64,000 bases of DNA, from contig WQYI01000001.1 in assembly GCA_009781315.1 (NCBI GenBank), positions 347,947-411,946 of the forward strand, written 5' to 3'. The translations under genes were made by a program, and so were the position numbers. The DNA comes from Candidatus Endomicrobium embiratermitis (GTDB lineage Bacteria > Elusimicrobiota > Endomicrobiia > Endomicrobiales > Endomicrobiaceae). Under the pieces are notes generated by a model. It ran no database searches. It was given only the letters and a program-made list of their open reading frames with translations, and was not told the origin of the DNA. Within the stretch, counting starts at the first letter, position 1. Each line of letters starts with the position of its first letter. This document shows positions 51-62,747 of this stretch, piece by piece.

Positions 51-139
51 CAAAGTGTAAAGTGTAAAGTGAAAAGTGAAAATAAAAAACATTGTGTCTT
101 GACGTTATTTTCACTTTCAACTTTTCACTTTTAACTTTG
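51..139. repeat. Heptad palindrome H1 (AAAGTGW flavour)
   Basis: The left arm (51-83) repeats a 7-mer of the type AAAGTGT/AAAGTGA. The right arm (107-139) is its approximate reverse complement (TTTTCAC type), and about 23 bp separate them. The right arm runs into the end of rnc, so the rnc stop codon (131-133) and its last residues lie inside the arm. Confidence 0.8.
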
Positions 140-811
140 TCTTTTTATGTTTTCCAATGCTTTTTTCGCGGCTTCCTGCTGGGCCTCTTTTTTTGAGTGC
201 CCGACGCCTTTTCCCAAAAGCCTGTCTTTTATATAAACTGCAGCCTCAAATTTTTTGTCGTGGTCAGGACCGAATTCTCTTATTATTTTATACTTTGGAA
301 GCTCTTTGCAGTCCGACTGTGAAGATTCCTGCAGCCTGCTTTTATAATCCGTAATTTCTATTTCTTTCTGTCCGTCTAAAAACTTCAAGACAAACTTTTT
401 CGCGTTTTCAAAACCGCCGTCTATATAGATAGCTCCGCTGACGGCTTCAAAAGCGTCGCAAAGCAAACCTTCTCTGTTTCGCGCTTCTTTGCTGTCTTCA
501 CTTTTGCCCAAAAAAATAAAATCGCCGAGATTTATAAGTTTAGCCCAAGAGCTTAAATTTTGGGCTGAAACGATTTGCGATTTTAATTGCGAGAGTTTAC
601 CCTCAGTTTCTTCGGGGTATCTTTTATAGAGAGCGTCAGCGACAACCGCGGACAAAATACTGTCGCCCAAAAATTCCATTCGCTCATTATAATTTTTAAA
701 ACCCGACCCGGCAGCATGCGACTTATGCGTAAGAGCCGTTATTAAAACTTCAAGGTTATTGAACGTATATTCAATAACCTTTTGAAGTTTTTCAATCTCT
801 CTATTTTTCAT
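131..811 (-). CDS. rnc: Ribonuclease III
   Basis: Double-strand-specific endoribonuclease that processes rRNA precursors and structured mRNA. The 226 residues match the usual bacterial length. The signature NERMEFLGDS lies at 42-51, with E46 and D50 as likely metal ligands, and D119/E122 form the second acidic pair. A C-terminal dsRNA-binding domain spans about 155-225, ending in the GKGVGHSKKEAQQEAAKKAL region. The start overlaps the end of fabF by 11 bp, so it is the last gene of the fab operon. The last few codons and the stop fall inside palindromic repeat H1, so the native C-terminus may have been rewritten by that element. Confidence 0.95.
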   Translation of the reverse strand: MKNREIEKLQKVIEYTFNNLEVLITALTHKSHAAGSGFKNYNERMEFLGDSILSAVVADALYKRYPEETEGKLSQLKSQIVSAQNLSSWAKLINLGDFIFLGKSEDSKEARNREGLLCDAFEAVSGAIYIDGGFENAKKFVLKFLDGQKEIEITDYKSRLQESSQSDCKELPKYKIIREFGPDHDKKFEAAVYIKDRLLGKGVGHSKKEAQQEAAKKALENIKRQS

Positions 812-2042
812 ATTTCTTAATAACTACGGTCGAATTATGTCCGCCAAATCCCAGCGAATTTGAAATAGCGCAATGAATTTGCTGTTCTCTTGCTTTATTA
901 GGGACATAATCCAAATCGCACTCAGGATCCGGAGTTTCATAATTTATCGTCGGATGGATGAAACCGCCCTGCATTGAAAGCACGGTCGCGGCAAGTTCTA
1001 CTCCCGCGGCGGCTCCCAAAAGATGTCCCGTCATCGATTTTGTCGACGATATAGGAATCTTGTACGCTCTTTCGCCAAAAACTTTTTTTATCGCGAAAGT
1101 TTCGGTTTTATCGTTCAAGGACGTTGACGTTCCGTGAGCGTTTATATAATCTACTTCGTCTTTTGAAATTCCTGCGTCGGCTATAGCGTTTTCCATAGCC
1201 AAAACAGCGGCTTTACCTTCCGGTTCCGGCGCGGTCATATGATAAGCGTCGTCAGACGCCCCGTAACCCGCGAGTTCGGCGTAAATTTTCGCCCCTCTCG
1301 CCAAAGCGTGTTCTAAAGTTTCTAAAATAATAATGCCGGCTCCTTCACCCATGACAAAACCGTCGCGGTTTTTGTCAAAAGGTCTGGAAGCCTTTTGAGG
1401 CTCGTCGTTTCGTGACGAAACTGCTTTCATATTGCAAAAACCCGCAAGCCCTAGCGGCGTAATTACAGCTTCGGCTCCGCCGGAAACCATAACATCCACA
1501 TAACCGTTGCGAAGCATGTTCAAAGCGTCGCCCATAGCATGGTTTGCGGAAGAGCAAGCGCTGCTAATTGAATAATTTGGCCCGGTAAAACCGTGCTGTA
1601 TGGCTATTTCGCCGGGAAGCATATTGGTTATTATCATAGGAATAAGAAAAGGGCTCACTCTTCTGGGACCTCTTTCAAGAAGAGCCTTCTCTTCTTCTTC
1701 GATAACGTCAAGCCCGCCCATACCCGTGCCGGTTATAACGCCGATTCTTGACATATCTTCTTTTGAAATATCAAGACCGGAATCTTCAATAGCCAGCTTT
1801 GCGGCAGCCATACCTACCTGCGTGAATCTCGCCATTCTTTTGGCTTTTTTCTTATCGACAAACTGCTCGGGGTTAAAATCTTTTATATAACCGCCGATTT
1901 TTGTCGAAAAAGCGCTTATGTCAAAATGTTCAATCGCGGAAATACCGGATTTTCCTTCCTTTAACGCTTTTGCAAATTCGGCATTTCCAATGCCTATAGG
2001 CGTTACTACGCCTATACCTGTTATAACTATTCTCTTTTTCAT
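801..2042 (-). CDS. fabF: 3-oxoacyl-[ACP] synthase II (KAS II)
   Basis: Condensing enzyme that extends acyl-ACP with malonyl-ACP in fatty-acid elongation. It has 413 residues with the full thiolase fold. The catalytic Cys is C163 in SSACSSANHAM, at the same position as in E. coli FabF. The two catalytic histidines lie in NAHGTSTSLND and STKSMTGHLLGAAAG. The start MKKRIVITGIG is the usual one and is preceded by AAGGCG. It follows acpP by 20 bp and overlaps rnc, giving the common acpP-fabF-rnc order. Confidence 0.97.
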   Translation of the reverse strand: MKKRIVITGIGVVTPIGIGNAEFAKALKEGKSGISAIEHFDISAFSTKIGGYIKDFNPEQFVDKKKAKRMARFTQVGMAAAKLAIEDSGLDISKEDMSRIGVITGTGMGGLDVIEEEEKALLERGPRRVSPFLIPMIITNMLPGEIAIQHGFTGPNYSISSACSSANHAMGDALNMLRNGYVDVMVSGGAEAVITPLGLAGFCNMKAVSSRNDEPQKASRPFDKNRDGFVMGEGAGIIILETLEHALARGAKIYAELAGYGASDDAYHMTAPEPEGKAAVLAMENAIADAGISKDEVDYINAHGTSTSLNDKTETFAIKKVFGERAYKIPISSTKSMTGHLLGAAAGVELAATVLSMQGGFIHPTINYETPDPECDLDYVPNKAREQQIHCAISNSLGFGGHNSTVVIKKYEK

Positions 2043-2062
2043 TTTATTAACGCCTTGATATT

Positions 2063-2302
2063 TTACTTTCCGGCATGCGTTTTAATATATTCAACCGCAT
2101 TTCCTACGGTTTGAATTTTTTCAGCTTCCTCATCCGGAATTTCAATACCGAATTCTTCTTCAAAAGCCATTACGAGCTCAACTGTGTCTAACGAGTCAGC
2201 GCCTAAATCATTAACAAAAGATGCTCCTGCTACAACTTCAGCCGGATCAACGCCTAACTGCTCAACAATAATTTCCTTCACTCTAGCTTCAAAGTCTGCC
2301 AT
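2063..2302 (-). CDS. acpP: Acyl carrier protein
   Basis: Carrier of growing acyl chains via a 4'-phosphopantetheine arm. It has 79 residues and is strongly acidic. S37 in [10 protein letters not shown] is the attachment site. A strong ribosome site (GGGAGG) precedes the ATG. It lies between fabG and fabF in the lipid operon. The 100 bp upstream of it hold a decayed heptad repeat (H2). Confidence 0.97.
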
Positions 2303-2360
2303 TTTTACTTCCTCCCTTTTGTTTTTTACAACTGTTCTGTTTATTTTGCTTCTAGTTAAT

Positions 2361-2399
2361 TAAGTGTGAGAAATGTCTTTATCTTCACTCTTCACTTTG
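2361..2399. repeat. Heptad palindrome remnant H2 (AAAGTGA flavour)
   Basis: A right arm built of TCACTCT/TCACTTT heptamers (2381-2399) faces a very short left arm (AAGTGTGAG, 2362-2370). The arm ends 3 bp from the fabG stop codon, matching the placement rule of the better preserved copies. It is a degenerate copy. Confidence 0.5.
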
Positions 2400-2402
2400 A
2401 TG

Positions 2403-3146
2403 TTACATATACATTCCGCCGTTTACCGCTAAAACATGGCCAGTTATATAGGATGAATCATCGCTTGCGAAAAACAGAGCGGCCTTAGCTATATCGGACG
2501 CTTCACCCAGTCTTGAAAGCGGAATTGTGTCCGCCATTGCTTTCTTCTGGTCTTCCGTTAACTTGTCGGTCATTGCGGTGCGGATAAACCCGGGAGCTAT
2601 TGCGTTGACAAGGATATTTCTTGAAGCAAACTCTTTCGCGCATGTTTTTGTTATTGCGATTACTCCGCCTTTTGAAGCGGAATAATTAATTTGTCCCGCA
2701 TTTCCCATCTGACCTACAACAGAAGCTATATTTATTATTCTGCCTTCTCTCTGCTTAAGCATTGGTTTTGAAGCTGCTTTTATACAATTAAATACTCCTT
2801 TAAGGTTAACCGCTATTACCGCGTCCCACTCGGCTTCGGACATTCTTAAAACGAGATTGTCCTTTGTTATTCCGGCATTGTTAATAAGTATATCTATTTT
2901 AGAAAATTTGTCAAGCGAGGACCTGACGAGATTTTCGCAATCTTCAGGCTTTGCAACGTTACATGCCACGGCTATGGTTTCAACGCCGTATTTCGACTTT
3001 ATTTCATCCGCGGTTTTCTGCGAAAGTTCCGCGTTTATATCAGAAATTACCAAATTTGAGCCTTCCTGCGCAAAAGCTTCGGCAATAGCTCTGCCTATTC
3101 CCTGAGCCGAACCCGTAACAACTGCTGTTTTACCTTTAAGTCTCAT
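2403..3146 (-). CDS. fabG: 3-oxoacyl-[ACP] reductase
   Basis: NADPH-dependent first reduction step of fatty-acid elongation. It is a 247-residue classical short-chain dehydrogenase: cofactor motif TGSAQGIG at 11-18, NNAG at 89-92, and a catalytic set of N115 (weakly placed), S142, Y155 and K159 (YSASK). The ATG overlaps the fabD stop codon (ATGA), indicating translational coupling. Its ribosome site lies in the fabD 3' end. In this cluster FabG is more likely than a generic SDR. Confidence 0.95.
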   Translation of the reverse strand: MRLKGKTAVVTGSAQGIGRAIAEAFAQEGSNLVISDINAELSQKTADEIKSKYGVETIAVACNVAKPEDCENLVRSSLDKFSKIDILINNAGITKDNLVLRMSEAEWDAVIAVNLKGVFNCIKAASKPMLKQREGRIINIASVVGQMGNAGQINYSASKGGVIAITKTCAKEFASRNILVNAIAPGFIRTAMTDKLTEDQKKAMADTIPLSRLGEASDIAKAALFFASDDSSYITGHVLAVNGGMYM

Positions 3147-4072: not shown

Positions 4073-4090
4073 TTTTACTCCGTAAAAATT

Positions 4091-4189
4091 AAGAAGTTGG
4101 GATGTTGAGAGGATGAGAAGATGAGCAACAACATCAAAAAAATTTTTGCCTTTGCTCAACTTCCAAACTTCCCATCATCTCATCTTCTG
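4091..4189. repeat. Heptad palindrome H3 (GATGAGA/GAAGTTGG flavour)
   Basis: The left arm (4091-4125) is a run of GAAGTTGG, GATGTTGAG and GATGAGA units. The right arm (4155-4189) is the approximate reverse complement. The core contains a GAGCAA ... TTTGCTC stem. It ends 3 bp short of the fabH stop codon and separates fabH from fabD inside an otherwise tightly packed operon. Confidence 0.8.
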
Positions 4190-4192
4190 TTT

Positions 4193-5182
4193 CTATATCC
4201 GTATTACTGCGGCGCCCCAAGTAAAACCCGCGCCAAAAGCCACAAGTTCTGCTAAATCGCCTTTTTGAATTTTACCTGTTTTTATGGCTTCGTCCAAAGC
4301 TGTTATCGTTGTTGCGGACGAAATATTACCTGTCTTATGAATATTTACAAAAACTTTATCCATTGAAACTTCAAGCCTTTTCGCTACGGCTTCAATTATT
4401 CTCATGTTTGCCTGATGAGGAATAAAAAGTTTTATATCATCGATAATTTTATTTGCAATTTCAAGCGCTTTTTGAGCGGCTAAAACCATTTTAGGCACCG
4501 CTGTTTTAAAAACTTCTTTCCCTTCCATTCTTATATAATGCATTTTCTTTTCAACCGTTTCCGCGCTTGCCGGATTGGCGGACGCGCCGGCCGAAAGATA
4601 TAAAAGATCGGAATGTAAACCGTCCGAACCCATAAACACGGACAATATATCATTATTTTCTTGTGAAGCGGCCAAAACCATAGCGCCCGCGCCGTCTCCG
4701 AATAAAACGCATGTATTTCTGTCCGACCAGTCGGTAAATTTCGACAACTCCTCCGCGCCTACAAGTAAAACCGTTTTATAAATTCCTGATTCTATAAAAG
4801 CTTTTGCTACGCCTATAGCATATATAAAACCGCTGCATGCCGCGGATAAATCAAAAGCAGCGGCATTATACGCGCCAAGTTTATTCTGTAAAAAACACGC
4901 AGTTGAAGGAAACAGCATATCGGGAGTTACGGTGGCTACTAAAATCAAATCTATTTGTTCGGGCGAAATCCCGGCGGTTTTCAAAGCCTCTTTAGAAGCT
5001 TCGCAGGCAATATCGGAAGTAAGCTCGTTTTTTTCCGAAACATGCCTTTCTTTTATACCGGTTCTCGTACTTATCCATTCATCCGAGGTTTCAACGATTT
5101 TTTCCAAGTCAGTATTCGTAAGGACTTTTTTCGGAAAATATGAACCCGTGCCTAAAACTTTTACGCCTGTTTTTTTATTCAT
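4193..5182 (-). CDS. fabH: 3-oxoacyl-[ACP] synthase III (KAS III)
   Basis: Initiates fatty-acid synthesis by condensing an acyl-CoA with malonyl-ACP. It has 329 residues. The catalytic triad is complete: C116 in LSAACSGF, H256 in IPHQANMRI and N286 in KTGNISSATT. The start MNKKTGVKVLGTGSYFP is typical. It begins 4 bp after the plsX stop, so coupling with plsX is likely. Confidence 0.96.
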   Translation of the reverse strand: MNKKTGVKVLGTGSYFPKKVLTNTDLEKIVETSDEWISTRTGIKERHVSEKNELTSDIACEASKEALKTAGISPEQIDLILVATVTPDMLFPSTACFLQNKLGAYNAAAFDLSAACSGFIYAIGVAKAFIESGIYKTVLLVGAEELSKFTDWSDRNTCVLFGDGAGAMVLAASQENNDILSVFMGSDGLHSDLLYLSAGASANPASAETVEKKMHYIRMEGKEVFKTAVPKMVLAAQKALEIANKIIDDIKLFIPHQANMRIIEAVAKRLEVSMDKVFVNIHKTGNISSATTITALDEAIKTGKIQKGDLAELVAFGAGFTWGAAVIRI

Positions 5183-5186
5183 TTAT

Positions 5187-6428: not shown

Positions 6429-6430
6429 TT

Positions 6431-8141: not shown

Positions 8142-8162
8142 ATTACCGCCTCTTTTTAAACT

Positions 8163-8289
8163 ACAATTTACAATTAACAATGAACAATTAATAATTATTG
8201 TGTTTTCGCTTTACGAAAACCTGCTAAATATGTTTTGGCTTTGCCGAAACTCCGACATTGTTAATTATTACTTATTAATTGTTAATTGT
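8163..8289. repeat. Heptad palindrome H4 (ACAATTA flavour) with double-hairpin core
   Basis: The left arm 8163-8201 is made of ACAATTT/ACAATTA heptamers and the right arm 8256-8289 of TTAATTG-type heptamers, inverted relative to each other. Between them are two 19-nt hairpins, 8202-8220 (GTTTTCGCTTTACGAAAAC) and 8232-8250 (GTTTTGGCTTTGCCGAAAC). The element ends 2 bp before the ndk stop codon. Confidence 0.85.
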
Positions 8290-8291: not shown

Positions 8292-8732
8292 CTATTTCCA
8301 GTCGTTATAATCGTAATTCATTATTTCTTCGGGTTTGAAAAAGAAAGAAACTTCTTTTTTTGCGTTTTCCGGACTGTCGGAAGAATGAAGGGCGTTTTTT
8401 CTGCCGTCCGTTCCGAAAAGATTTCTTAAAGTTCCCACAGCCGCCTCTTTAGAATTTGTCGCGCCTATAATGTTTCTTACTCTCATTATGGCGTTTTCCC
8501 CTTCCCATGCCATAACTATGACCGGAGCCGAACATATAAAACTTATAAGAGGTTCAAAAAACGGTTTGCCTTTATGGACGGCGTAAAACTCTTCCATTTC
8601 CGGCTTAGCAGGCTTTAACATTTTTAAACCCGCAAGCTTTAATCCTTCGTCGTCAAATTTTTTTATTATATCTCCGGAAAATTTACGGCAAACCGCATCG
8701 GGTTTAATTATTACGCATGTTCTTTCAATCAC
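8292..8732 (-). CDS. ndk: Nucleoside-diphosphate kinase (canonical copy)
   Basis: Balances NTP pools by phosphotransfer through a phosphohistidine. It has 146 residues, close to the family norm, with KPDAV near the N-terminus and H116 in NALHSSDS as the phospho-acceptor. The ATG overlaps the isocitrate dehydrogenase stop by 4 bp. A second, longer and divergent NDK lies at 25472. Confidence 0.95.
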
Positions 8733-13176: not shown

Positions 13177-13192
13177 TTTATAATCCTTTCAA

Positions 13193-13271
13193 ATTACAAT
13201 TAACAATTTACAATTTTTAAAGCAGTTTAACAAAATTAATTATTATTTGTTAATTGTAAATTGTCAATTGC
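13193..13271. repeat. Heptad palindrome H5 (ACAATTA flavour)
   Basis: The left arm 13193-13220 and right arm 13235-13271 are inverted copies of ACAATTA/ACAATTT heptamers, without the double-hairpin core. The stop codon of the upstream aminotransferase (13264-13266) lies inside the right arm. Confidence 0.8.
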
Positions 13272-14400
13272 TTTTTAAGAGTTCTTCTTCCGCTGCTGCC
13301 ACGGCTTTGCCTTTTTCAACCTTTACTCCGAGTTCAGCCAAAACCATTTCAAGACACGCAAAACCTACAAGCAGGTCTGCTTTGCCGATATAGCCCATAT
13401 GGGCGAATCTTATGATTTTACCTTTCAAATCGCCCTGTCCGCCTGCGATTGAAACCCCGTATTTTTCTCTTAAAGTTTTTACTATTTTTCCGCCGATAGC
13501 TTCGGGAACTTTCGCGCTTGTAACGACTTCGCACGGAACTTCGCCGTAAATTTCAAGCCCCAAAGCTTTCATACCCGCTCTTGCGGCTTTTGCCAGTAAT
13601 TTATAATCATTCCAAAGATTTTCAATTCCTCTTTCTTTTATAAGCCTTATTGACTCCTGCAAAGCAACTATAAGAGTAACAGGAGGAGTAAAAGGCGTTT
13701 CGTTTGTCGCGTAAGATTTTTTATATTTTTTTATGTCGAAATAAAATTTCGGCATTTTAGATTCTTCAACGGCTTTCCATGCTTTATCGCCGAGCGTAAT
13801 AAAAGCGAGACCCGGAGCAAGCATAAAACCTTTCTGAGAACCCGAAACTACAACGTCGACTTTCCAATCATCCGTTTTAAATTCCTGACCAACAAGACCG
13901 GAAATCGCGTCCACAACCAAAACAGCTTTTGTTTTTGAAACTATTTCGCCTATAGCTTTAATATCATTGGCAACACCCGTCGATGTTTCCGTAAAAGTAG
14001 TATAAACGGCTTTAACGTTAGGATTTTCTTTTAACGCTTTTTCTATTTCAACAGGTTTAACTACGTTTCCCCACGGCGCGGAAGCGGAAATGACTTTCGC
14101 TCCGTAACTTTGGGCAATTTTTACCCATCTGTCGCCGAAATTACCGCAACCGGCGACTATAACTTCATCTCCCGGGCTCAGCAAATTTATTACCGCCATT
14201 TCCATCGCGGCAGTACCGGAACCCGCAAGCATATATACTTCATTTTTCGTTTGGAAAACGTATTTAAGCCCTTCCGCAACGTCTTTATAAATCGCCGCAA
14301 ATTCGCTTGTGCGGTGATGTAGTATGGGCAACGCCTCTTTTAGGGCGACTTCAGGCGGAATCGGCGTAGGTCCGGGAGTCAAAAGATAATGCTTCTTCAT
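13264..14400 (-). CDS. Class V aminotransferase (serine-pyruvate/alanine-glyoxylate type), probable phosphoserine aminotransferase
   Basis: PLP enzyme of 378 residues starting KKHYLLTPGPTPIPPEV, the hallmark of the AGXT/PucG branch. The PLP lysine is in SGSQKGFML. Its position directly before serA suggests it supplies phosphoserine (or makes serine another way), as do AGXT-like enzymes in lineages lacking a standard SerC. Alanine-glyoxylate transamination is the alternative. The last codon and stop fall within repeat H5. Confidence 0.85.
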   Translation of the reverse strand: MKKHYLLTPGPTPIPPEVALKEALPILHHRTSEFAAIYKDVAEGLKYVFQTKNEVYMLAGSGTAAMEMAVINLLSPGDEVIVAGCGNFGDRWVKIAQSYGAKVISASAPWGNVVKPVEIEKALKENPNVKAVYTTFTETSTGVANDIKAIGEIVSKTKAVLVVDAISGLVGQEFKTDDWKVDVVVSGSQKGFMLAPGLAFITLGDKAWKAVEESKMPKFYFDIKKYKKSYATNETPFTPPVTLIVALQESIRLIKERGIENLWNDYKLLAKAARAGMKALGLEIYGEVPCEVVTSAKVPEAIGGKIVKTLREKYGVSIAGGQGDLKGKIIRFAHMGYIGKADLLVGFACLEMVLAELGVKVEKGKAVAAAEEELLKSN

Positions 14401-14422: not shown

Positions 14423-14542
14423 GTTAGGAATGAGGAGTTAGGAATTAGGAATGAATGTGTTTCGCCTTCGGCGAAACCTATAACTTGTTTTCGCTTTGCG
14501 AAAACACATACACTCCTAATTCCTCATTCCTCACTCCTAATT
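14423..14542. repeat. Heptad palindrome H6 (TTAGGAA flavour) with double-hairpin core
   Basis: The left arm 14423-14455 is built of TTAGGAA/TGAGGAG heptamers and the right arm 14511-14542 is the inverse. The core holds two 19-nt hairpins, GTTTCGCCTTCGGCGAAAC (14459-14477) and GTTTTCGCTTTGCGAAAAC (14487-14505). It ends 4 bp before the lon stop codon. Confidence 0.85.
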
Positions 14543-14546: not shown

Positions 14547-16931
14547 TTATTTTTGTTTCTGTTTTTTAGTTTTCTCGGCTTTGCCTAAAGCAAAAGATAT
14601 AACCTCATCCATATGCGATACGGGAATCATTTCAATTTTTTCTTTTATATCTTTGGGAATGTCCGCCAAATCTTTTTTATTGCTGTCTGGAAACAAAACC
14701 GTTTTAATGCCTTCCCTATACGCGGCCAAAACTTTTTCTTTAAGCCCGCCGATGCCAAGCACCCTGCCTCTCAAAGTAACTTCGCCGGTCATAGCGACCT
14801 TTTTCTTAACGGCTTTATTCATACACACCGAAGCAAGAGCGGTAGCCAGCGCTATGCCCGCGCTCGGACCGTCTTTAGGAACCGCGCCTTCGGGAACATG
14901 AACGTGGAAATCAGTCTCTTTAAACAAATCTTCATTTATACCCAGTTTTGCCGCAGATGAACGCACATAAGTAAGCGCAGCATGCGCGGATTCTTTCATT
15001 ACGTCGCCGAGTTTTCCGGTAAGAAAAAGACCGCCTTTGCCTTTCATTCTGTTTACTTCTATGGTAAGCGTTTCCCCGCCGACTTCAGTCCACGCGAGCC
15101 CGGTTACCACGCCGATATCGTTCTCCGTAATTTTTTCTCTTTCAAATACCGGAACGCCCAGATATTTATTTATATTTTCCGTAGTCACCGTTATCTTTTT
15201 TATATTGCCGTCAAAAGCAAGCTCTTTCGCGATTTTCCTGCATAGATTTGCTATTTCCCTGCTCAAATTCCTTACGCCCGCTTCATGCGTGTAACTTTTG
15301 ATTATCGCGTCTAAAGCCGAATCTTCAAGAATAAATTCCTCGTTTTTAAGACCATGTTCGTTAAGCTGTTTCGGGAATATAAAATCCCGCGCTATGCGGT
15401 GTTTTTCTTCGTCTGTATAACCTGAAAATCTTATTGTTTCAAGCCTGTCAAGCAAAGTGGTCGGTATATTATGCAAAGTATTTGCCGTAGTTATAAACAT
15501 AACTTTAGACAAATCAAAATCAACGTCAAGATAATGGTCGCCGAAAGCGTAATTTTGCTCCGGATCGAGCACTTCCAGCAAAGCCGACGACGGATCGCCT
15601 CTCCAGTCCGAACCCATTTTGTCTATTTCGTCAAGAATAAACACGGGATTATTCGAGCCAGCTTTTTTCATAGACTGTATGATTTTTCCGGGAAGAGAAC
15701 CTATGTACGTGCGCCTGTGCCCTCTTATTTCGGCTTCGTCGCGCACTCCGCCCATGGAAATTCTTACGAAATTTCTGCCCAAACTTCTTGCGACGGATTT
15801 TGCTATGGAAGTTTTTCCTACTCCCGGAGGTCCTATAAAGCACAGTATAGGCCCTTTTATTTTGTTGACTCTGGATAATACCGCAAGGTATTCCAAAATT
15901 CTGTCTTTAACTTTTTCAAGGCCGTAATGGTCCTGGTCTAAAATTTCTTTGGCTCTTTTTAAATCCAGATTGTCCTGCGTGGATTTTTCCCAGGGAAGTT
16001 CTACAATCCAGTCGAGATATGTCCTTATAACCGTAGCTTCCGGCGACATAGGCATCATTTTTTCAAGGCGTGAAAATTCTTTTTCCGCCGCATCCCTGGC
16101 GGCTTGGGGCATTTTTGTTTTCTTTAATTTTTCTTTGAGATCGTCTAAATCTTTTTGGGCGTCGTCTTTTTGTTTAAGCTCTTTTTGTATGGCTTTCATC
16201 TGTTCGGTAAGATAATATTCTTTCTGCGTTTTCTCAATCTGGTTTCTTACCCTATTTTGTATTCTGCGTTCAATATTTAATATTTCAATTTCAGCGTTTA
16301 AAATTTGTATTATTTTTTCAAGGCGCTCTACGGGATTTACGAGTTCTAAAATAATCTGTTTATCGTTGTTTTTAATGGCAAGGTGCGAGGCTATGGTGTC
16401 CGCAAGCCTTGCCGGATCTGCGATATTGTTAACCGATATTGAAATTTCCATGGGCATTCTGGGATTAAGTTTTACATACTGCTCGAAAAGCGAAACAACG
16501 CGTCTCATCACGGCTTCCGTTTCGGGCGTTTTTTCAACTTTCTCGTCGAAAACTTTAACGCCTACTTCTATATAACCTCTGTCGTTAAGTCTGTAATCCG
16601 TCCATTGCGCGCGGCTTATTCCTTCGACAAGAGCTTTAAGCGTACCGTCGGGCATTTTGAGAATCTGCAAAACCTCGCAGACAGTGCCTATCGCGTAAAT
16701 ATCGTCGGGCGCAGGGTCTTCAACCTGAACGTTTTTTTGCGTGACGGCAAAAATAAGCCTATTTGAAGACATTGATTCTTCCAAAGCCCTTATGGACTTT
16801 TCCCTGCCGACAGCCAAAGGCAAAACCATAGCGGGATAAAGTATTATTTCACGTACAGGAAGCATTGGCAATGTGTCCGGAATTTTCACGGCTTCGTTTT
16901 TGTCATTATTAAACCTGTCTAATTCGCTCAT
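14547..16931 (-). CDS. lon: ATP-dependent protease Lon
   Basis: Cytoplasmic AAA+ protease for damaged and regulatory proteins. It has 794 residues in the usual layout: an N-terminal substrate domain ([13 protein letters not shown]), a coiled region, AAA+ with Walker [10 protein letters not shown] and Walker B-like VFILDEID, then a C-terminal protease domain. The catalytic Ser is in KDGPSAGIA and the Lys follows in [11 protein letters not shown]. The start overlaps the clpX stop by 4 bp, so lon is the last gene of a tig-clpP-clpX-lon operon. Confidence 0.97.
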
Positions 16932-18787: not shown

Positions 18788-18872
18788 GTTGAAGAAGGTG
18801 AGATGTTGAGAAGTTGGGATGTTGAGCAACGGCTTTGCTTTTACCCATCTTCTCATCTTCCCATCATCTAAC
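18788..18872. repeat. Heptad palindrome H7 (GATGTTGA/GAAGTTGG flavour)
   Basis: The left arm 18788-18826 has GATGTTGAG and GAAGTTGGG units. The right arm 18843-18872 is the inverse (CATCTTC type). The same flavour occurs in H3. The tig stop codon (18868-18870) lies inside the right arm, and the element separates tig from clpP. Confidence 0.8.
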
Positions 18873-20227: not shown

Positions 20228-20353
20228 GACAAAGTGGAAAGTGTAGAGTGAAAAGTGAAGATATTGTGTTTTCACTATGTGAAAACTTATAATTTGTTTC
20301 GGCTTTGCCGAAACACGACATCTTCACTCTTCACTTTTAACTTTTCACTTTTT
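20228..20353. repeat. Heptad palindrome H8 (AAAGTGA flavour) with double-hairpin core
   Basis: The left arm 20228-20262 (AAAGTGG/AGAGTGA units) and right arm 20319-20353 are inverted. The core hairpins are GTTTTCACTATGTGAAAAC (20268-20286) and GTTTCGGCTTTGCCGAAAC (20296-20314). It lies between tRNA-Leu and tig, 14 bp from the tRNA 3' end, and might double as a processing or termination structure. Confidence 0.85.
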
Positions 20354-20367
20354 ATTATTGCCGTTTT

Positions 20368-20448
20368 GCGGACGGAGGGACTTGAACCCCCACACCTTGC
20401 GGTATATGGTCCTAAGCCATACGCGTCTGCCAATTCCGCCACGTCCGC
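20368..20448 (-). tRNA. tRNA-Leu (anticodon UAG)
   Basis: An 81-nt class II tRNA. Acceptor GCGGACG pairs with CGTCCGC. The D-arm is GGCGGAATTGGCAGACGC and the anticodon stem-loop is TATGG-CTTAGGA-CCATA with TAG. A long variable arm follows, and the T-loop is TTCAAGT. CCA is not encoded. Confidence 0.95.
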
Positions 20449-20456
20449 ACTATAAC

Positions 20457-20576: not shown

Positions 20577-20671
20577 AATTACGAATTCAAAATTACAAAT
20601 TACGAATCAACGGCAACAGCAAACAGCTTTTGGGTCTTTGATTCGTAATTCTTCATTCGTAATTCGTAATT
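20577..20671. repeat. Heptad palindrome H9 (AATTACG flavour)
   Basis: The left arm 20577-20610 (AATTACG, AATTCAA, AATTACA, AATTACG) and right arm 20638-20671 (ATTCGTA units) are inverted around a 27-bp core containing AACAGCTTTTGGGT. This copy lies between divergent transcription units and, unlike the others, is not beside a stop codon. Confidence 0.8.
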
Positions 20672-27867: not shown

Positions 27868-27914
27868 CCCCTCCCCTCTCACGCTGCTTAATTAAGCAGC
27901 GTGAGAGGGGAGGG
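27868..27914. terminator. Long perfect hairpin between convergent pckG and the giant autotransporter gene
   Basis: CCCCTCCCCTCTCACGCTGC followed by TTAATTAA and the matching inverse arm, about 21 bp of stem with one unpaired C. It has no U-tract, but its position between convergent genes suits a bidirectional terminator. Confidence 0.6.
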
Positions 27915-37665: not shown

Positions 37666-37810
37666 TCTTTTTCTCCTTTTTGTAAGTTCCAATTGTTAAA
37701 ACTTATAAAACATACGCTATTTGTAACATAGTATATATATGGGCATCTTGAAAAACCTGATATTTTTAAAAAAAAAGAGTCATTTAAAAACGCCTTTAAT
37801 AAATTATTGC

Positions 37811-45124: not shown

Positions 45125-45949
45125 TTAATTTGTAATTGCCGTTTTGGCATATTTTTTTATTATTTCCGCGTCAATAGTACTTAAATTGTCTATAAATGCC
45201 GTTTGAAACGAAAATGTGCCTTTGTTTGACTTTGCCGCAGTTTCCGAAGCCCATTTATATATGACTGAGCTTGCCAAAGCGGCAGTAAGAGGGTCGGCAA
45301 CCGACGAATAAACCGCCATTATGCCGCCTAAAGAACATCCTGCTCCGGTAATCTTTTTCAACATTTCAGAGCCGCCGGTTACGCGATAAATTTCTTTCTC
45401 ATTTAAAACCAAATCAACTTCTCCTGAAACCGCGACAACACCGCCTGTCCATTCGGCAAGAGCTTTTGCGGAATCTAAAGCCGCGTCAACCGTATCGGTA
45501 GAATCAACCCCTTCCACATTGCCTTTTTTATTGGTTTGAAGTTCCCAAAGGTTTGCCAAAGCAATAATTTCAGATGCGTTTCCTCTTATTATGTTTGGTT
45601 TATACTGTTTAAGGTCTTTTAGTAAAGAATTACGGGTATCGCCGAGCCCTGCCGCTACCGGATCTAAAACCCATGGTTTGCCAAGCTCCACAGCGGCTTT
45701 TGCGGCATCTGCCAAAGCCTGTTTTGCTATCGGCTCAAGAGTTCCGGCATTAATGTAAATTGATTTTGAAACTGATGCGAGGGGTTTTGCTTCGTCGGGC
45801 AGAAAACACATTGCGGCTCTTCCGCCAACAGCCAATTGGGCATTGGCAACCAGATTGATTGTTACAAAATTAGTCCACGACCCGGACAGAGGACTTGTTT
45901 CTTTTACATCGTTTACGGCTTTTACAACGGACGACAATACTTTTTCCAT
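45125..45949 (-). CDS. thiM: Hydroxyethylthiazole kinase
   Basis: Salvage kinase phosphorylating the thiazole moiety of thiamine. 274 residues of the ribokinase-like fold: NFVTINLVANAQLAVGGRA at the N-terminus, PWVLDPVAAGLGDTR, NIIRGNASEIIAL, and GAGCSLGGIMA with the catalytic Cys/Gly loop. Together with thiE and no visible thiC/thiG here, it suggests salvage, at least locally. AAGGAG overlapping the riboswitch 3' end precedes the ATG. Confidence 0.95.
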   Translation of the reverse strand: MEKVLSSVVKAVNDVKETSPLSGSWTNFVTINLVANAQLAVGGRAAMCFLPDEAKPLASVSKSIYINAGTLEPIAKQALADAAKAAVELGKPWVLDPVAAGLGDTRNSLLKDLKQYKPNIIRGNASEIIALANLWELQTNKKGNVEGVDSTDTVDAALDSAKALAEWTGGVVAVSGEVDLVLNEKEIYRVTGGSEMLKKITGAGCSLGGIMAVYSSVADPLTAALASSVIYKWASETAAKSNKGTFSFQTAFIDNLSTIDAEIIKKYAKTAITN

Positions 45950-45954
45950 TATTT

Positions 45955-46061
45955 TCTCCTTACGCCGGCATTATCCGGTTCAAGTATATACGGTCTAATC
46001 TCAGCCCTGACACTTTCTTAGCGTCATACAGCAAGCTTCCCGCTTGCGGGCACCCGTGAAC
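45955..46061 (-). promoter_or_regulatory. TPP riboswitch (THI element) of thiM-thiE
   Basis: On the minus strand: ACGGGTGCCC, an enlarged P3 arm, GGCTGAGATTAGACCGT, then TTGAACCGGATAATGCCGGC and GTAAGGAG, all conserved THI-box landmarks in order. P2 is ACGG/CCGT and P4 is CCGG/CCGG. The Shine-Dalgarno GGAG is part of the 3' end of the aptamer, 6-7 nt from the thiM ATG, so control is probably at translation initiation. Confidence 0.92.
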
Positions 46062-46153
46062 TACAATTAACAATTTATAATTTATAAATAACAATTAAAG
46101 ATAAATACTTAACATGCAGTTTTTAATTATTTAATTGTAAATTGTTATTTATT
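46061..46153. repeat. Heptad palindrome H10 (ACAATTA flavour)
   Basis: The left arm 46061-46096 (ACAATTA, ACAATTT units drifting to ATAATTT) and right arm 46124-46153 are inverted. The stop codon of the upstream gene (46145-46147) is inside the right arm. The left arm borders the 5' end of the TPP riboswitch. Confidence 0.75.
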
Positions 46154-47407
46154 ACTTGCTTTTTTTGGAGCTCTCTTTTTTGAATAGCTCACTTTTATAG
46201 TTTCCGTCGGTAAACCTATATTATTTAGCAATTCAAGATAAGGGTCCGGATCAAGCTCTTCGACATTTACCATTTTCTTGGCGTCCCAATCGCCTTTTGC
46301 CACCAAAATTGCCGCGGCAACCGCAGGCACTGCGGCGGTATAACTTATCGCTTGGGATTCAACTTCCTCATAACACGCCTTATGATCGCATACATTGTAT
46401 ATGAAAAGTTCTTCTCTGCGCCCGTCTTTAGTTCCTACTATCAAATCGCCTATGCAGGTATTTCCCGTATAATTAGGCGCAAGAGTTTTCGGGTCAGGCA
46501 GACAAGCTTTCACAACTTTTAAAGGCACAACTTCAAGTCCTTCCGAGGTTTTTACAGGTTTTTCTGAAAGTAACCCTATATTTTTTAAAACCGTGAAAAC
46601 ATTGATATAGTGGTCGCTAAATCCCATCCAAAATCTGACAGAATTTGCGTCCATATATTTTGAAAGCGAATGAATTTCATCATGCCCCGTCAAATAAACC
46701 GTCTGTTTTCCGACAACCGGAAAATCATAAACCATTTTTTCGGAATGCACTGGTTTTTCAACCCATTTTCTGTCTATATAAGCCCAGACTTTGTGAAATT
46801 CCCTGAAGTTAATCTCAGGGTCAAAATTCGTCGCGAAATATTTGCCGTGGCTGCCCGCGTTTACGTCCATTATATCGATTGTGTCGATAGTATCAAAAAA
46901 ATGTTTTTTCGCGTAAGCAGCGTAAGCGTTTACAACGCCCGGGTCAAAACCTGCTCCAAGTATTGCGGTTATTTGCTTTTCATCGCATCTGTCTTTGCGC
47001 TTCCACTCGTAATTGGCATACCATGGAGGATTTTCACAGACTTTGTTAGGCTCTTCGTGAATTGCCGTATCTATATAAGCCGAGCCGCTTTCTATGCATG
47101 CTTCAAGTATAGACATATTACAAAAAGCGGAAGCAAGATTGATTGTAATATCGATATTCCACTTTTTTATCAATTTGGCAAGTTCGGGAACATTCAAAGC
47201 GTCAATTCTTTTTGCGGTTATTTTATTTGAAGGGTCTTTATAATTATTTTTACGTTCTATACTTTCTAAAATATCAGTACAGGCGTCTAAAGAACGCGAA
47301 GCAATATAAATATTGCCGAACAAATCGTTGTTTTGGGCAAGTTTATGAGCCGCCACATGGGCAACTCCTCCGGCTCCTATCAAAAGTACATTTTTTTTCT
47401 TTTCCAA
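46145..47407 (-). CDS. Carboxynorspermidine synthase (saccharopine dehydrogenase family)
   Basis: Reductively condenses a diamine with aspartate semialdehyde, giving carboxy(nor)spermidine in the alternative polyamine pathway. 420 residues, Rossmann motif LLIGAGGVAHVAAHKLA at the N-terminus, then the family core (HEEPNKVCENPPWYANYEWK, GAGFDPGVVNAYAAYA). The adjoining decarboxylase gene makes this call much stronger than the generic saccharopine dehydrogenase label. The C-terminal KKRAPKKASNK tail ends within repeat H10. Confidence 0.9.
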   Translation of the reverse strand: MEKKKNVLLIGAGGVAHVAAHKLAQNNDLFGNIYIASRSLDACTDILESIERKNNYKDPSNKITAKRIDALNVPELAKLIKKWNIDITINLASAFCNMSILEACIESGSAYIDTAIHEEPNKVCENPPWYANYEWKRKDRCDEKQITAILGAGFDPGVVNAYAAYAKKHFFDTIDTIDIMDVNAGSHGKYFATNFDPEINFREFHKVWAYIDRKWVEKPVHSEKMVYDFPVVGKQTVYLTGHDEIHSLSKYMDANSVRFWMGFSDHYINVFTVLKNIGLLSEKPVKTSEGLEVVPLKVVKACLPDPKTLAPNYTGNTCIGDLIVGTKDGRREELFIYNVCDHKACYEEVESQAISYTAAVPAVAAAILVAKGDWDAKKMVNVEELDPDPYLELLNNIGLPTETIKVSYSKKRAPKKASNK

Positions 47408-48834: not shown

Positions 48835-48865
48835 TTCCACTTTCCACTCTTCACTTTTCACTCTG
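48835..48865. repeat. Single heptad arm H11 (TCACTTT flavour)
   Basis: Four heptamers CCACTTT, CCACTCT, TCACTTT, TCACTCT in a row, the same flavour as the right arms of H1, H2 and H8. No inverted partner is present. It ends 3 bp from the stop codon of the upstream GH57 gene, like the full elements. Confidence 0.7.
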
Positions 48866-48868: not shown

Positions 48869-51046
48869 TTAAACAGTCCAACTCAAAAAATTAAATTTTT
48901 CCGACGGTTTTGCAAAAACTATTGTAGACTGATACGGCCATCTTTCTATTTCCAAATCATTTTTATCCACGCTTACGGTAAACTCGACATTTTCATAATT
49001 CTGGGGAAATTCAAGGTCTTTAAACGGAATCGCCGCTTCTATAATTTTTGAGAACGAAACGTTACTCACGTCAAGAGCCTTTTCCGAAAAATCCGTTTTT
49101 AAAGTAAATTTTACGACATTCCCCTCGGAACTAAACTTAATTGCGATTTTACATTTGAGAGGATTTAAAAATATTATATAAAACGTCAATTCTTCAAGCG
49201 ATTTCATCGTTATATCGCCGCTTAAATCAAACCTTACGTAAAAATTATCCATATTAAAACCGTAATGAAACGATTTTAGCGCCGTCGACACCTGATGCAT
49301 CGACCCGCCGGAATGTCCGACCTCGTAAAACCCCGCGTTTTTCCATTCGAAAAAACTTGTAACTTTACCGTCGATTACAGGATTTATAAAAGACGTCGGT
49401 TTGAAAACGTTGTATTTTTTCGGAGCGTTCTTTATAGACTTATACAAAATATCCGGCGGCCTTTGCCCGATACATTCGTATACTTTTATAAGATGCTGCC
49501 TGTAAATATAATCAAAAGCGGCATCATTGCCGGAAGAATGGTCGTCTCCGTACCACCAATTCCAGTCCGAACCTTCCGCGGCGTAAAGATTTTCCCAAGC
49601 TTCTTTCTCCTGCTGCGAATCTTTTAACGCGGGATTTTTTTCGATAAAATCCGTAAGGAAGTCTCTCGTCATTGTGAGATAATCCCATGAAGCATTGTCT
49701 TCGGGATGACCTATCCAAACTCCGAAATTTCCGTTTATCCACGAACCGGCCGTAAGATTTGTTATGGTATTTTTAGGAGGAAATTTTTCAAGATAATCGC
49801 TTATCCTCACGGTTTCAATACTGTTATCCGCGCTTAATTTTTCATAAAGTTTAGTCAAAAAATCCCAGCCGTCGTTTTTATAGTATTCCCAACAATTTTC
49901 GCCGTCTAAAATAACAGATATCAAAGGAGCGTCGTAAGAATTACCTACGAAATTTCCTATATTTTTTATTTTATTGATAAAATCGTTCACCGCGTCTTCA
50001 GAGTCCCATCGGGAGTAAACAAAGCCTATGGAATCAGAAAGCCCGTGATCGCGGAAAAGCATATTCAAACTGCTGCCTCCGACGCGGAGATTAAAAGGTC
50101 TGAATAACGCTCTTCTGTCGCTGACGCCGTCTTTCGCGCCAAACAAAATAGCTTCGTCCGTAGCAGTCCATTTTATTCCGGCATCCGCTATAAGCGACGC
50201 GGCTTCGTTTGAAATCGAACCTTCCGACGGCCACATTCCTTTGGGTTTATGCCCGAAAACTTCTTCATAATATTTTACGGCTTTATTTATCTGCCATACG
50301 GCGTCTTCCGTATGAGAAAATCTTTTTGCAGGAAGAGCCATATTCGGAGTAGCCTGATGAGCGGCGTTTGTATCGCATAAAAGAGGAAGTATAGGATGAT
50401 AAAAAGGCGTTATTGAAACTTCAATCTGCCCCCTGTCCTGGGCTTCTTTGTGTTTTTGAACTATCTTGCCGCAGATTTCAAGCTGCTTTCTTACAAGTTC
50501 GTTTTTTTCGTCCTCGGTAAAATCTCTGCCCTTATTGTATAAACCGTCGATAAATTCGTCGGTTTTGCGCCAGTACGGATCCATCCACGTCAAATTAAAC
50601 CACACCTGTAAATCCCTGAAGTCTTCGACTTTGAAATAGTTCAAAGTCTTTCTGATTTCGGCTTCGTTGGTTTGTCTGCCACGTTTTTCAAGCAGCTGTA
50701 AATAGCGGTTGTACGGAAAAATCATATTGTCCCAGTTTGCCATAAAAAAATTCAAAAGTATAAAAACTTTTTCATCGTTGGTAAGCTCGTCGGCGGATTT
50801 AAGCGTAAGTTCCAGAAATTTGTCTTTTGCCAATCCTTTGGCGTACTCGTCAAGCTGGACAAGCAAAGACGGAACAAGATTAAAATTTGATTTGATGTTT
50901 GGGTAATCGTCAAGTATGGCGACCATATCGTAATAATCTTTTGTCGCGTGCAGCCTTACCCACGGGAGTTCGTAAACGTTTGTCGAAGGGTTTTTATACA
51001 TAGGCTGGTGCTGGTGCCATAAGAAAGCAAGATAAATTTTCTTCAT
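48869..51046 (-). CDS. Glycoside hydrolase family 57 (alpha-amylase/amylopullulanase type)
   Basis: 725 residues. YLAFLWHQHQPMY is the GH57 N-terminal motif. E275 in GMWPSEGSIS is the likely nucleophile and D381 in VILDGENCWEYY the acid/base. A C-terminal beta-rich region (about 550-725) follows the catalytic barrel. It has no signal peptide, so it probably acts on cytoplasmic alpha-glucans (glycogen or maltodextrin). The exact bond specificity cannot be read. Confidence 0.88.
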   Translation of the reverse strand: MKKIYLAFLWHQHQPMYKNPSTNVYELPWVRLHATKDYYDMVAILDDYPNIKSNFNLVPSLLVQLDEYAKGLAKDKFLELTLKSADELTNDEKVFILLNFFMANWDNMIFPYNRYLQLLEKRGRQTNEAEIRKTLNYFKVEDFRDLQVWFNLTWMDPYWRKTDEFIDGLYNKGRDFTEDEKNELVRKQLEICGKIVQKHKEAQDRGQIEVSITPFYHPILPLLCDTNAAHQATPNMALPAKRFSHTEDAVWQINKAVKYYEEVFGHKPKGMWPSEGSISNEAASLIADAGIKWTATDEAILFGAKDGVSDRRALFRPFNLRVGGSSLNMLFRDHGLSDSIGFVYSRWDSEDAVNDFINKIKNIGNFVGNSYDAPLISVILDGENCWEYYKNDGWDFLTKLYEKLSADNSIETVRISDYLEKFPPKNTITNLTAGSWINGNFGVWIGHPEDNASWDYLTMTRDFLTDFIEKNPALKDSQQEKEAWENLYAAEGSDWNWWYGDDHSSGNDAAFDYIYRQHLIKVYECIGQRPPDILYKSIKNAPKKYNVFKPTSFINPVIDGKVTSFFEWKNAGFYEVGHSGGSMHQVSTALKSFHYGFNMDNFYVRFDLSGDITMKSLEELTFYIIFLNPLKCKIAIKFSSEGNVVKFTLKTDFSEKALDVSNVSFSKIIEAAIPFKDLEFPQNYENVEFTVSVDKNDLEIERWPYQSTIVFAKPSEKFNFLSWTV

Positions 51047-58567: not shown

Positions 58568-58601
58568 ATATCTCCCCTGCAATACGCCGTGTCGTCAGGT
58601 T

Positions 58602-59822: not shown

Positions 59823-59874
59823 TTTAAATGACTCCTTTATACCGATTAAAAAATTCTTTTATATTATAGCATTA

Positions 59875-61796: not shown

Positions 61797-61828
61797 CTAT
61801 ATTCTCCGTTTCTATCGTTGACTTTATT

Positions 61829-61909
61829 GTCATTGCGGACTTGATCCGCAATCTATTCCTTATATTTTTTAATGGCTAACATGGATTCCGGCACGGAGGC
61901 CAGAATGAC
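61829..61909. repeat. Dispersed palindromic repeat R5
   Basis: GTCATTGCGGACTTGATCCG with GCAATC at its left half and GGATTCCGGCACGG...AGAATGAC at its right half. Same outer and inner inverted words as R1-R4. It lies between the nuclease gene and argB. Confidence 0.65.
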
Positions 61910-61917
61910 ACGACGAG

Positions 61918-62646
61918 CTATTTTTCATTCGCCGTTGAAAATTTACATTTATTCTTAAAATCGCACATCGGGCATTTTGTGACGTCCGGGTCAAAACTTT
62001 CAGACGTTATTTTACCGGCCGTTTCAAGGCATAAATTTACGGCATTTTCTATCTGGGCTTGAGTTCTTTGCGTATATATTTTTTTATTTTCCGATAAAAA
62101 ATAAACCGATATTTTATCCGGATTAAACCCGAAAACATTTTTACACGCGTACGCGTATATTGTCAGCTGCAAATCGTTATCGACTTTTTCCTGCGGCCAG
62201 ACTTTAGCGTGCGTTTTGTAATCCATAACCTCGTATTTGCCGTCGGGATACCTGTCAATCCTGTCTATAATTCCTATAAATCTGTATTTACCGATGTTGG
62301 CGTCAAAAGATTTTTCCGTGTATACAATTTCCGTTTCAGACTGCATAAAAGATTTATGATAATTTTCAAGCATAACTTTGCCACGCTCGTAATACTCAAA
62401 AATATCCCTAGGGTCTTCAAAGCCGTCGTTTTTCCAGTTTTCGTCGTAACATTCCATCAACTCTTCAAGCGTGCGGCCGTTTTTTGAATGATATTTTTCA
62501 AGAGCGGCGTGAATTATGTGCCCGAAAGTTATATCGGGATTTATCGGGATATGCACGTTATCAACATAAACCAAATTATATTTGTAAGGACAAAACAAAT
62601 AAGCGTTAATCCTCGAATAACTTATTTTAAAATCTTCCCAAACCAC
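61918..62646 (-). CDS. Cas4/RecB-like PD-(D/E)XK nuclease with Fe-S cysteines
   Basis: 242 residues from a GTG at 62646 with GGAG 5 bp upstream; the longer frame (MLTVNCKLL...) reads through repeat H12. ISYSRINAYLFCPYKY holds the first Cys (C19), followed by GHIIHAALE, GIIDRIDRYP and EVMDYKT (the D and D-x-K nuclease core), and C225-x2-C228-x5-C234. This is the 4Fe-4S arrangement of Cas4 and AddB-type nucleases. There is no CRISPR array or cas gene nearby, so it is a stand-alone member, probably in DNA repair. Confidence 0.85.
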   Translation of the reverse strand: MVWEDFKISYSRINAYLFCPYKYNLVYVDNVHIPINPDITFGHIIHAALEKYHSKNGRTLEELMECYDENWKNDGFEDPRDIFEYYERGKVMLENYHKSFMQSETEIVYTEKSFDANIGKYRFIGIIDRIDRYPDGKYEVMDYKTHAKVWPQEKVDNDLQLTIYAYACKNVFGFNPDKISVYFLSENKKIYTQRTQAQIENAVNLCLETAGKITSESFDPDVTKCPMCDFKNKCKFSTANEK

Positions 62647-62653
62647 AAAAACT

Positions 62654-62747
62654 CCAATTAACAATTTACAATTAACAGTTAACAATTATATTGTTATTTG
62701 TATTTGCCGTTGATTCGTAATTCGTAATTTTGAACTCGTAATTATCG
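62654..62747. repeat. Chimeric heptad element H12 (ACAATTA left arm, ATTCGTA right arm)
   Basis: The left arm 62654-62689 is ACAATTA-flavour as in H4/H5, whereas the right arm 62710-62747 is the ATTCGTAATT flavour as in H9. The two arms are not complementary. The right arm ends 7 bp before the rsmD stop codon. Confidence 0.75.

Follow-up and report, generated by a model that had tools for sequence, protein, structure and literature searches.

The window considered here is a stretch of 64,000 nucleotides from Candidatus Endomicrobium embiratermitis (contig WQYI01000001.1 of assembly GCA_009781315.1, positions 347,947 to 411,946; G000:C1:347947-411946 in our numbering). It holds twelve places at which short words of DNA are repeated in tandem, in most of them answered by an inverted array, and most of these places lie at the ends of genes. 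What are these palindromes, and how did they come to lie there? A preliminary description of the sequence proposed either a mobile or self-amplifying element family that targets gene 3' ends or a structure for transcript processing. The assembly (genome G000) is 1.9 Mb long and 99.97% complete, and the genome-wide sample comprised 854 kb of it (45%), namely the window and stretches of contigs C1, C2, C3, and C4. The protein of the open reading frame (ORF) 13264-14400 was closest to metagenome-assembled genomes of Endomicrobium, several of them termite-named, in a comparison from which G000's own records may have been omitted.

The elements are probably non-autonomous mobile palindromes with a little-recognised architecture that are moved by a trans-acting factor. 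The earlier suggestion of a mobile or self-amplifying family is supported by homologous copies in both orientations, by differences between species in the strict palindromes, and by the presence and absence of a family with 8-nt words (octads) at corresponding sites in a related genus.

Word arrays and paired arms

Strict tandem arrays were counted in 464 kb: 34 had a period of 7 and 11 a period of 14, which is a harmonic, while periods of 4-6 and 8-13 gave 0 or 1 each. Relaxed period-7 arrays numbered 67, whereas each of three length-matched order-1 Markov controls gave 0. The heptad phasing on which the preliminary description was built is therefore not due to chance, but it is incomplete, as two of the listed elements (4093-4187 and 18794-18868) consist of octads. 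The words had also been called unrelated in flavour, which proved mistaken: 73% of the 67 arrays match NN-R-R-T-K-A in some rotation or on either strand, compared with 14% of random 7-mers. The signal holds in the larger sample, where a scan of the 854 kb for inverted repeats (arm length ≥18, loop length ≥12) returned 104, of which 49 had period 7, 17 had period 8, 31 had no clear period, and 7 had other periods. Period 8 forms the second regular class, with words of the GAAGATGA/GAAGTTGA type and of the GATGCATA type, and the unit lengths in G000 are thus two, the heptad (7) and the octad (8). The twelve places were read base by base and then compared with the ORF table; all are as first described in outline, but two are octads, one is a remnant, one is a single arm, and one is a hybrid (Table 1).

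Arms were also searched for one at a time by word pattern, with no complementarity required. The patterns were picked post hoc, after inspection of the data, and since arms of fewer than three words were left out of the counts the numbers are for longer arrays, with the rarer word families under-counted. In the 854 kb this search returned 176 arms with three or more words. As a control, the patterns were run on the plus strand of 340 kb, where they gave 11, 10, 1, 1, 1, 5, and 4 arms and permuted-column patterns gave 0 or 1; automated "reversed pattern" controls are not independent because reversing a tandem array yields nearly the same pattern. Exactly four words are present in 112 of the 176 arms over all families. 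The two commonest families, AAAGTKN and ACAATTA, account for 121 of the 176 arms, and four words are found in 47 of 61 AAAGT arms and in 22 of 60 ACAAT arms, a further 28 of which have five. Four-word arms also make up 7 of 10, 2 of 4, and 2 of 4 in the rarer heptad families GGART, CGAAT, and GTART, and 28 of 30 and 4 of 7 in the octad families GADGHTGR and GATGCATR. Left and right arms form 57 convergent pairs spanning ~55-140 bp between their outer ends; both arms belong to the same word family in 57 of 57, and the reverse order occurs in 0. By the pattern used, 62 of the 176 arms are partnerless.

The words are made of fixed and free letters (e.g., AAAGTKN, GGARTKA, GADGHTGR), each position being either near-invariant or free. 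Letters 1, 2, 4, and 6 of the octad GADGHTGR are constant at 0.97-0.98 and letter 5 is A in 0.37, T in 0.41, and C in 0.17, and in GGARTKA (22 words) letters 4 and 6 are near 50:50. Between the two arms of an element the fixed letters agree at 0.93 (AAAGT) and 0.95 (octad) and the free letters at 0.39 and 0.38, respectively, so the stem is a series of short paired blocks in which most mismatches fall on free letters. When the arms were dealt between elements, the free letters of AAAGT elements of equal arm length (15 of 21) matched at 46 positions within elements compared with 58.7 (sd 4.6), those of octads (10 of 11) at 46 compared with 56.8 (sd 4.5), and those of ACAATTA elements (7 of 21) at 54 compared with 55.5 (sd 3.5), which is no effect; the result with all pairs agrees with that of the equal-arm-length subset. 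Active avoidance of matching at free letters was considered and rejected, as a simpler account is available and related copies are not independent: the low match within elements results from two differing arm types that always co-occur and from copies in both orientations.

The outer ends carry motifs of their own. In the AAAGT family they read TAAMGRC (-5 A 0.93, -1 C 0.81, 42 ends) and constitute terminal inverted repeats common to the copies. The ACAATTA ends, TAACG, are weaker (-4 A 0.79, -3 A 0.79, -2 C 0.48, -1 G 0.43, 42 ends), and the octad ends show no clear common motif.

The AAAGT family as a full-length repeat

Copies of the AAAGT family are homologous over their full length of ~135-145 bp and occur in both orientations. 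From one end to the other, a copy reads TAAMGRC, four AAAGTKN words, AAATATTGTG, the hairpin TTTCGGC-nnn-GCCGAAA, and a linker of ~10 nt, after which come the hairpin GTTTTYGC-nnn-GCRAAAAC, ACATAATTT, four complementary words, and a second copy of the end motif. For 17 of the 21 AAAGT pairs the core defines an orientation, and these align over their whole length (the other 4 were omitted, as the core gave no orientation), with a median pairwise identity of 0.725 and a best of 0.874, and for 122 of 136 element pairs the orientation defined by the core gives the better alignment.

In the alignment (A1), 98.5% and 99.3% of the cells of the two mini-hairpins are paired, with three broken cells overall, and their stems covary: columns 48-66 are GC in 11 and AU in 6 copies with 0 broken, and columns 83-91 are CG in 9 and UA in 8 with 0 broken. 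The outer stem pairs in 80.4% of cells, and its free letters are mostly unpaired. Mini-hairpins are also present beyond this family, in the window elements 8163-8289 (ACAATTA) and 14427-14537 (GGARTKA), and the octads inspected do not have the pair. Five window elements were folded as single-stranded DNA and compared with shuffles, and the z scores are included in Table 1. At gathering score, an Rfam scan of the window returned 3 tRNAs and a thiamine pyrophosphate (TPP) riboswitch only, and the elements match no known structured RNA family; the upstream end of the riboswitch (45940-46067, minus strand) touches element 46063-46152. In a separate observation, two ACAATTA elements that lie 1.1 kb apart (L113:13643-13761 and L113:14839-14946) have an unusual core in common, inverted, as if from a single copying event.

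Placement at gene ends and differences between species

The preliminary description placed all but two elements at stop codons, and 10 of the 12 indeed include the stop codon of the gene upstream or are no more than 8 bp away from it. Of the remaining two, 20577-20671 is a true exception, and 20231-20351 has as its true neighbour the 3' end of a tRNA gene. The gene calls behind the wider counts are longest-first ORFs, uncurated and with tRNA genes omitted, and 20231-20351 is counted there as one of six divergent cases. Among 56 paired elements with two neighbours, 47 are in tandem, 3 in convergent, and 6 in divergent gaps, and none lies within an ORF; this is near the distribution of all gene gaps, in which 543 of 642 neighbour pairs are tandem. 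With 5 nt added at each end, all 47 tandem-gap elements start in the interval from 41 nt ahead of the upstream stop to 19 nt beyond it, and 33 overlap this stop. In the 456 tandem gaps that are free of elements, a stop is no more than 20 nt away for only 16% of usable non-coding bases, and the position of the elements is therefore far from random over non-coding DNA. The proposed proximity to stop codons is thereby confirmed; as for the proposed targeting of gene 3' ends, the sequence data do not separate a choice of target from the survival of harmless insertions.

Orthologous sites differ between species. The junction comparison used 65 of 75 clusters (10 weak short ones were dropped), for 34 of which an orthologous junction was available among the relatives retrieved, and at 32 of these 34 G000 has one of the listed word families, with single arms counted. 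In G045 (n=29), 19 of the sites have no palindrome, 5 have another word family, 2 have another palindrome, and 3 have the same family, and in G044 (n=7) the corresponding numbers are 1, 3, 1, and 2; the "no palindrome" class is defined by a score <13 and may conceal decayed palindromes. Both occupied and empty sites are seen, and some of the sites that differ hold other word families. In the related genus g13 (91-93% serA identity) one octad family lies behind one stop in G066 and is missing there from G064, G067, G068, and G069; behind another stop it is present in G064, with G066 and G068 empty and a different element in G067; and behind a third it is present in G068, with G064 and G067 without it and a different element in G066. 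Strict AAAGT palindromes (overlapping matches counted) number 65 in G000, 26 in G047, 16 in G049, 6 in G052, 3 in G050, 1 in G046, and 2 in the distant G243, and 0 in the remaining 333 of 340 Elusimicrobiota genomes, including G044 and G045 of the same genus; the matches shown from G046, G050, G052, and G243 are without the two mini-hairpins. Densities cannot be compared between genomes because some stretches of G000, G047, and G049 were picked for matches listed earlier. Four-word arms make up 16 of 18 AAAGT-type arms in G047, 16 of 21 in G049 (these two from stretches that are partly match-picked), 6 of 8 in G044, and 10 of 20 in G045.

Two further kinds of sequence were observed. Relatives carry other inverted repeats with no period-7 or period-8 unit (L166:5929-6017, L167:8372-8457, L164:17500-17605, and L144:11008-11084), of the GTCATTCCCG..CGGGAATCCA and GTGTCATGCTGAACTCG types. 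At the g13 junctions L206-L209, mini-hairpins of the form AAAATTGC-nnn-GCAATTTT both flank and occupy octad elements, like separate tiny inserts.

Single arms also occur within genes. A partnerless five-word AAAGTGN arm lies in frame inside priA of G000 (a gene with Pfam PriA domains), and at the matching place G044 has CGAATTA words. A DHODB-type gene has an in-frame single arm of CGAATTA words in G000, CGAATTA words in G044, and a different insert in G045. Such in-frame arms bring the Rickettsia palindromic elements to mind.

These observations bear on the alternatives. The elements could belong to the host as a device at the 3' end of the mRNA, in which RNA folding serves to protect the upstream transcript or to process it, only the fold is selected, and the words drift fast. 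Palindromes at stop codons within gene rows and covarying mini-hairpins would be expected of such a device, and as a palindrome folds on either strand, orientation is no counter-argument. However, the 19 of 29 sites that have no palindrome in G045 by the threshold used imply that the site needs none, word families common to dozens of sites per genome are unexpected from point mutation under selection for a fold, and the arms within priA and the DHODB-type gene are partnerless and in frame; we regard this explanation as unlikely. The transcript processing put forward in the preliminary description finds no support in these data. A strand-specific RNA device was rejected, since the oriented AAAGT copies between tandem genes (n=14) lie 6 with and 8 against transcription, although this is a weak test for a palindrome.

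It is also rather improbable that the sites are old and fixed and that their word sets are rewritten in place, by recombination or template switching and not by fresh insertion. The site behind ORF 13264-14400 is what such rewriting would produce, as it has AAAGT-type words in G045, G047, G049, and L032 (a G044 contig, identical in sequence in the genes compared) and ACAATTA words in G000 alone among these, and the same can be said of the matching place in priA and of the hybrid element 62654-62747 in the window. Nevertheless, several orthologous sites are plainly empty (G046 at the first of these sites), and gain or loss of whole elements would also be required. Replication slippage, by which 7-nt microsatellites grow and shrink and palindromes arise by chance or template switching, finds a precedent in MacGregor 2015 (PMC4679880), where heptad repeats are reported as abundant across many bacteria and polymerase slippage is given as a proposed origin. 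It is a poor fit to the elements here, in which the number of units peaks at four, variation is confined mainly to set positions of the word, every pair is convergent and of one family, and octads obey the same rule, and we give it little credence. Intrinsic transcription terminators or attenuators, suggested by hairpins located behind genes, are very improbable, since the elements in same-strand gene rows (47 of 56) have a share equal to that of all gaps and therefore do not gather at gene-row ends, and most of the other inverted repeats that the strict scan returned have short loops and lack period 7.

Table 1. Elements of the window and two in-frame single arms elsewhere in G000, with their basis and surroundings.
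Element	Position	Strand	Basis	Stop codon and remarks
AAAGTKN heptad palindrome, 4+4 words	51..139 (arms 52-79, 111-138)		sequence, word pattern	includes stop of ORF 131-811 (-); short core without the two mini-hairpins; DNA fold z -6.1
AAAGT-type short remnant	2361..2399		sequence reading	stop of ORF 2403-3146 (-) 3 bp away
Octad palindrome GADGHTGR, 4+4 8-nt words	4093..4187		inverted-repeat scan, word pattern	stop of ORF 4193-5182 (-) 5 bp away; inner ends GCAA..TTGC; DNA fold z -2.3 (4/200 shuffles fold equally well)
ACAATTA heptad palindrome, 5+5 words, two-mini-hairpin core	8163..8289		sequence, word pattern	stop of ORF 8292-8732 (-) 2 bp away; DNA fold z -6.2
ACAATTA heptad palindrome, 4+4 words	13189..13271		word pattern	includes stop of ORF 13264-14400 (-)
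GGARTKA heptad palindrome, 4+4 words, two-mini-hairpin core	14427..14537		word pattern	adjoins stop of ORF 14547-16931 (-); DNA fold z -10.5
Octad palindrome GADGHTGR, 4 and 3 words	18794..18868		word pattern	reaches stop of ORF 18868-20199 (-)
AAAGTKN heptad palindrome, full core	20231..20351 (arms 20231-20258, 20324-20351)		word pattern, alignment	no stop codon near; ends 12 bp from tRNA-Leu 3' end (20366-20449, -); mini-hairpins 20268-20286 and 20296-20314; DNA fold z -8.2
CGAATBA-type heptad palindrome	20577..20671		sequence	away from any stop codon
ACAATTA heptad palindrome	46063..46152		word pattern	includes stop of ORF 46145-47407 (-)
Single AAAGT-type arm (half element)	48835..48865	-		3 bp from stop of ORF 48869-51046 (-)
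Hybrid, ACAATTA words in left half, CGAATTA words in right	62654..62747		sequence reading	7 bp from stop of ORF 62755-63324 (-)
In-frame single arm, five words	L117:6167-6223			priA
In-frame single arm, four words	L120:16206-16256			DHODB-type gene

Two other features of the window were recorded. At 27869-27914 there is a perfect inverted repeat with 23-nt arms and zero loop, which is either a natural palindrome or an assembly artefact, and the largest ORF (28024-37692, minus strand) encodes 3222 aa.

Proposed mobilisation and relation to known repeats

In the proposed mechanism, dispersed palindromes of ~55-150 bp, in which each of the two arms usually has four or five words of 7 or 8 nt and, in one family, the tip is formed by two hairpins, would be copied as whole units from site to site by a predicted trans-acting factor, presumably by transposition. 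The fixed letters would be the putative recognition site of this factor. The mobile form may be a folded single strand, in which the free letters would prevent a perfect long palindrome, and the elements would persist just past stop codons, where insertion is least harmful, through survival more than through choice of target.

Several results weigh against this mechanism. The most similar AAAGT copies are 87.4% identical, which gives no sign of a very recent move, and no clean target-site duplication was found, the orthologous gaps being too diverged (one g13 site has a possible AAAATT repeat by eye). Looser AAAGT-type arms are present in G044 (8 in 215 kb) and G045 (20 in 421 kb), and decay may therefore account for part of the difference between species. 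Inside the element-bearing gaps, 43 elements lie within -30 to +10 of the stop compared with 43.7 expected under uniform placement, which results from the elements filling short gaps. The structure of the AAAGT family is separated from controls by sliding alone (84.9% paired compared with 35-50%). Shuffling of the whole structure gave a paired share of 84.6% against the observed 84.9%, with 152 of 500 shuffles reaching it, and the covariation score was reached in 18 of 500, a weak separation; such shuffles separate poorly because most columns are either invariant or free. In the third small helix, which lies in the linker, only 62.7% of cells are paired. RNAalifold recovered both mini-hairpins unaided but shifted the register of the outer stem by one word, which indicates that this stem can slide, and the shifted register together with the GG-bearing word families slightly lowers our confidence.

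The search for a mobiliser, which covered the Y1_Tnp and RVT_1 families, also tells against a simple account. RVT_1 reverse transcriptases number 0 in G000 and are absent from 71 of 76 genomes of the family, the 5 that have one including the element-bearing G068. A resident reverse transcriptase was therefore rejected as the spreader. Y1_Tnp was found in 14 of the 76 genomes (E ≤0.001; 13 exceed the cut-off) and is absent from G044, G066, and G068, all of which are rich in AATTA-type word arrays. The sole Y1_Tnp of G000, a RAYT-like protein of 250 aa (L114:2823-3660; G000:C1:62823-63660), is flanked by inverted ends that differ from those of the elements. It was inserted immediately after a heptad arm, where an ORF that by eye resembles a dihydrolipoamide dehydrogenase ends. 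It looks like a later guest at that arm, and a RAYT is disfavoured as the mobiliser on account of these ends and of the relatives that lack Y1_Tnp. The mobiliser is likely neither a reverse transcriptase nor a Y1 transposase.

The elements resemble several known repeats. They have in common with REP/REPIN sequences that they are small, intergenic, non-coding palindromes of high copy number, but they are longer, and Y1_Tnp is missing in element-rich relatives; no GTAG or CGTC tag of the 20-40 bp REP palindromes was noticed in the listed sequences, for which no dedicated search was made. As in miniature inverted-repeat transposable elements, the copies are non-coding and dispersed with inverted repeats, and those of the AAAGT family have common outer ends. 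Unlike such elements, they gave no clear target duplication, and their arms are word arrays that differ between species. In Nostoc punctiforme, SDR elements reportedly described by Elhai in 2008 are said to be hairpins of 21-27 nt with compensatory changes that often lie inside tandem heptads. They resemble the mini-hairpins here and differ in being separate small cyanobacterial elements.

The nearest published system is that of Rehm et al. 2015 (PMC4692102). In that paper, heptads of GGGAATC/GGGANTN in Xanthomonas and GGGGA(C/T)T in Nostoc lie near or overlap stop codons and were interpreted as G-quadruplex-forming simple repeats; those of Xanthomonas favour four units and form convergent inverted pairs, 70 in Xcc and 75 in Xac, at stable loci, 90% of which are between the same ORFs in two species, generally with no association with mobile elements. 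The likeness extends to fixed and free heptad letters, mostly four units, inverted pairs, and proximity to stop codons, whereas the Endomicrobium elements also include octads, have a two-hairpin core in one family, and occupy sites that vary between species. G-tracts able to form G-quadruplexes of the Rehm type are missing from the AAAGTKN and ACAATTA words. As the AAAGT arms peak at four words and the ACAATTA arms at four to five in the absence of such tracts, the G-quadruplex explanation is not general, although GGARTKA words contain GG and some octads GGG, where two-tetrad forms are still conceivable. The TAACTGA repeats of Beggiatoaceae, Cyanobacteria, and Bacteroidetes (PMC4679880) are likewise intergenic heptads, and the word matches NN-R-N-T-K-A; unlike the palindromes here they are direct repeats located mostly before start codons, with one indirect repeat reported against 169 sets.

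Among the matches listed from the open-licence literature on Endomicrobium and Elusimicrobiota (titles and abstract starts) these elements are undescribed, and they are not reported in two passages of PMC11257099, one on CRISPR and one a reference. A plasmid collection yielded one weak single-arm match in Sulfurovum, with no such palindrome listed within the surrounding 40 kb; its further matches were a second in Sulfurovum and one in a Monoglobus restriction-subunit-S gene.

A broader proposal is that the elements belong to a class of mobile DNA found across phyla and defined by its architecture rather than its sequence. Two arms, typically of four 7- or 8-nt words whose fixed letters would serve for recognition and whose free letters would leave the stem imperfect, would enclose a tip that may be forked. 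In this class, whole sets of words would be swapped between species, even at a shared stop codon or within one gene, as per-lineage mobiliser alphabets, and the G-rich heptads of Xanthomonas and Nostoc would be included under a mistaken name. We put this forward tentatively and consider it doubtful.

Heptad repeats have previously been classed as slippage microsatellites or as G-quadruplexes. The four-word mode, the two unit lengths, and the words without G-tracts point instead to a small mobile palindrome, a reading that can be tested. If the swapping of words at fixed sites is true, it would represent an undescribed route by which short DNA spreads or is rewritten, and the heptads of other phyla would merit re-examination.

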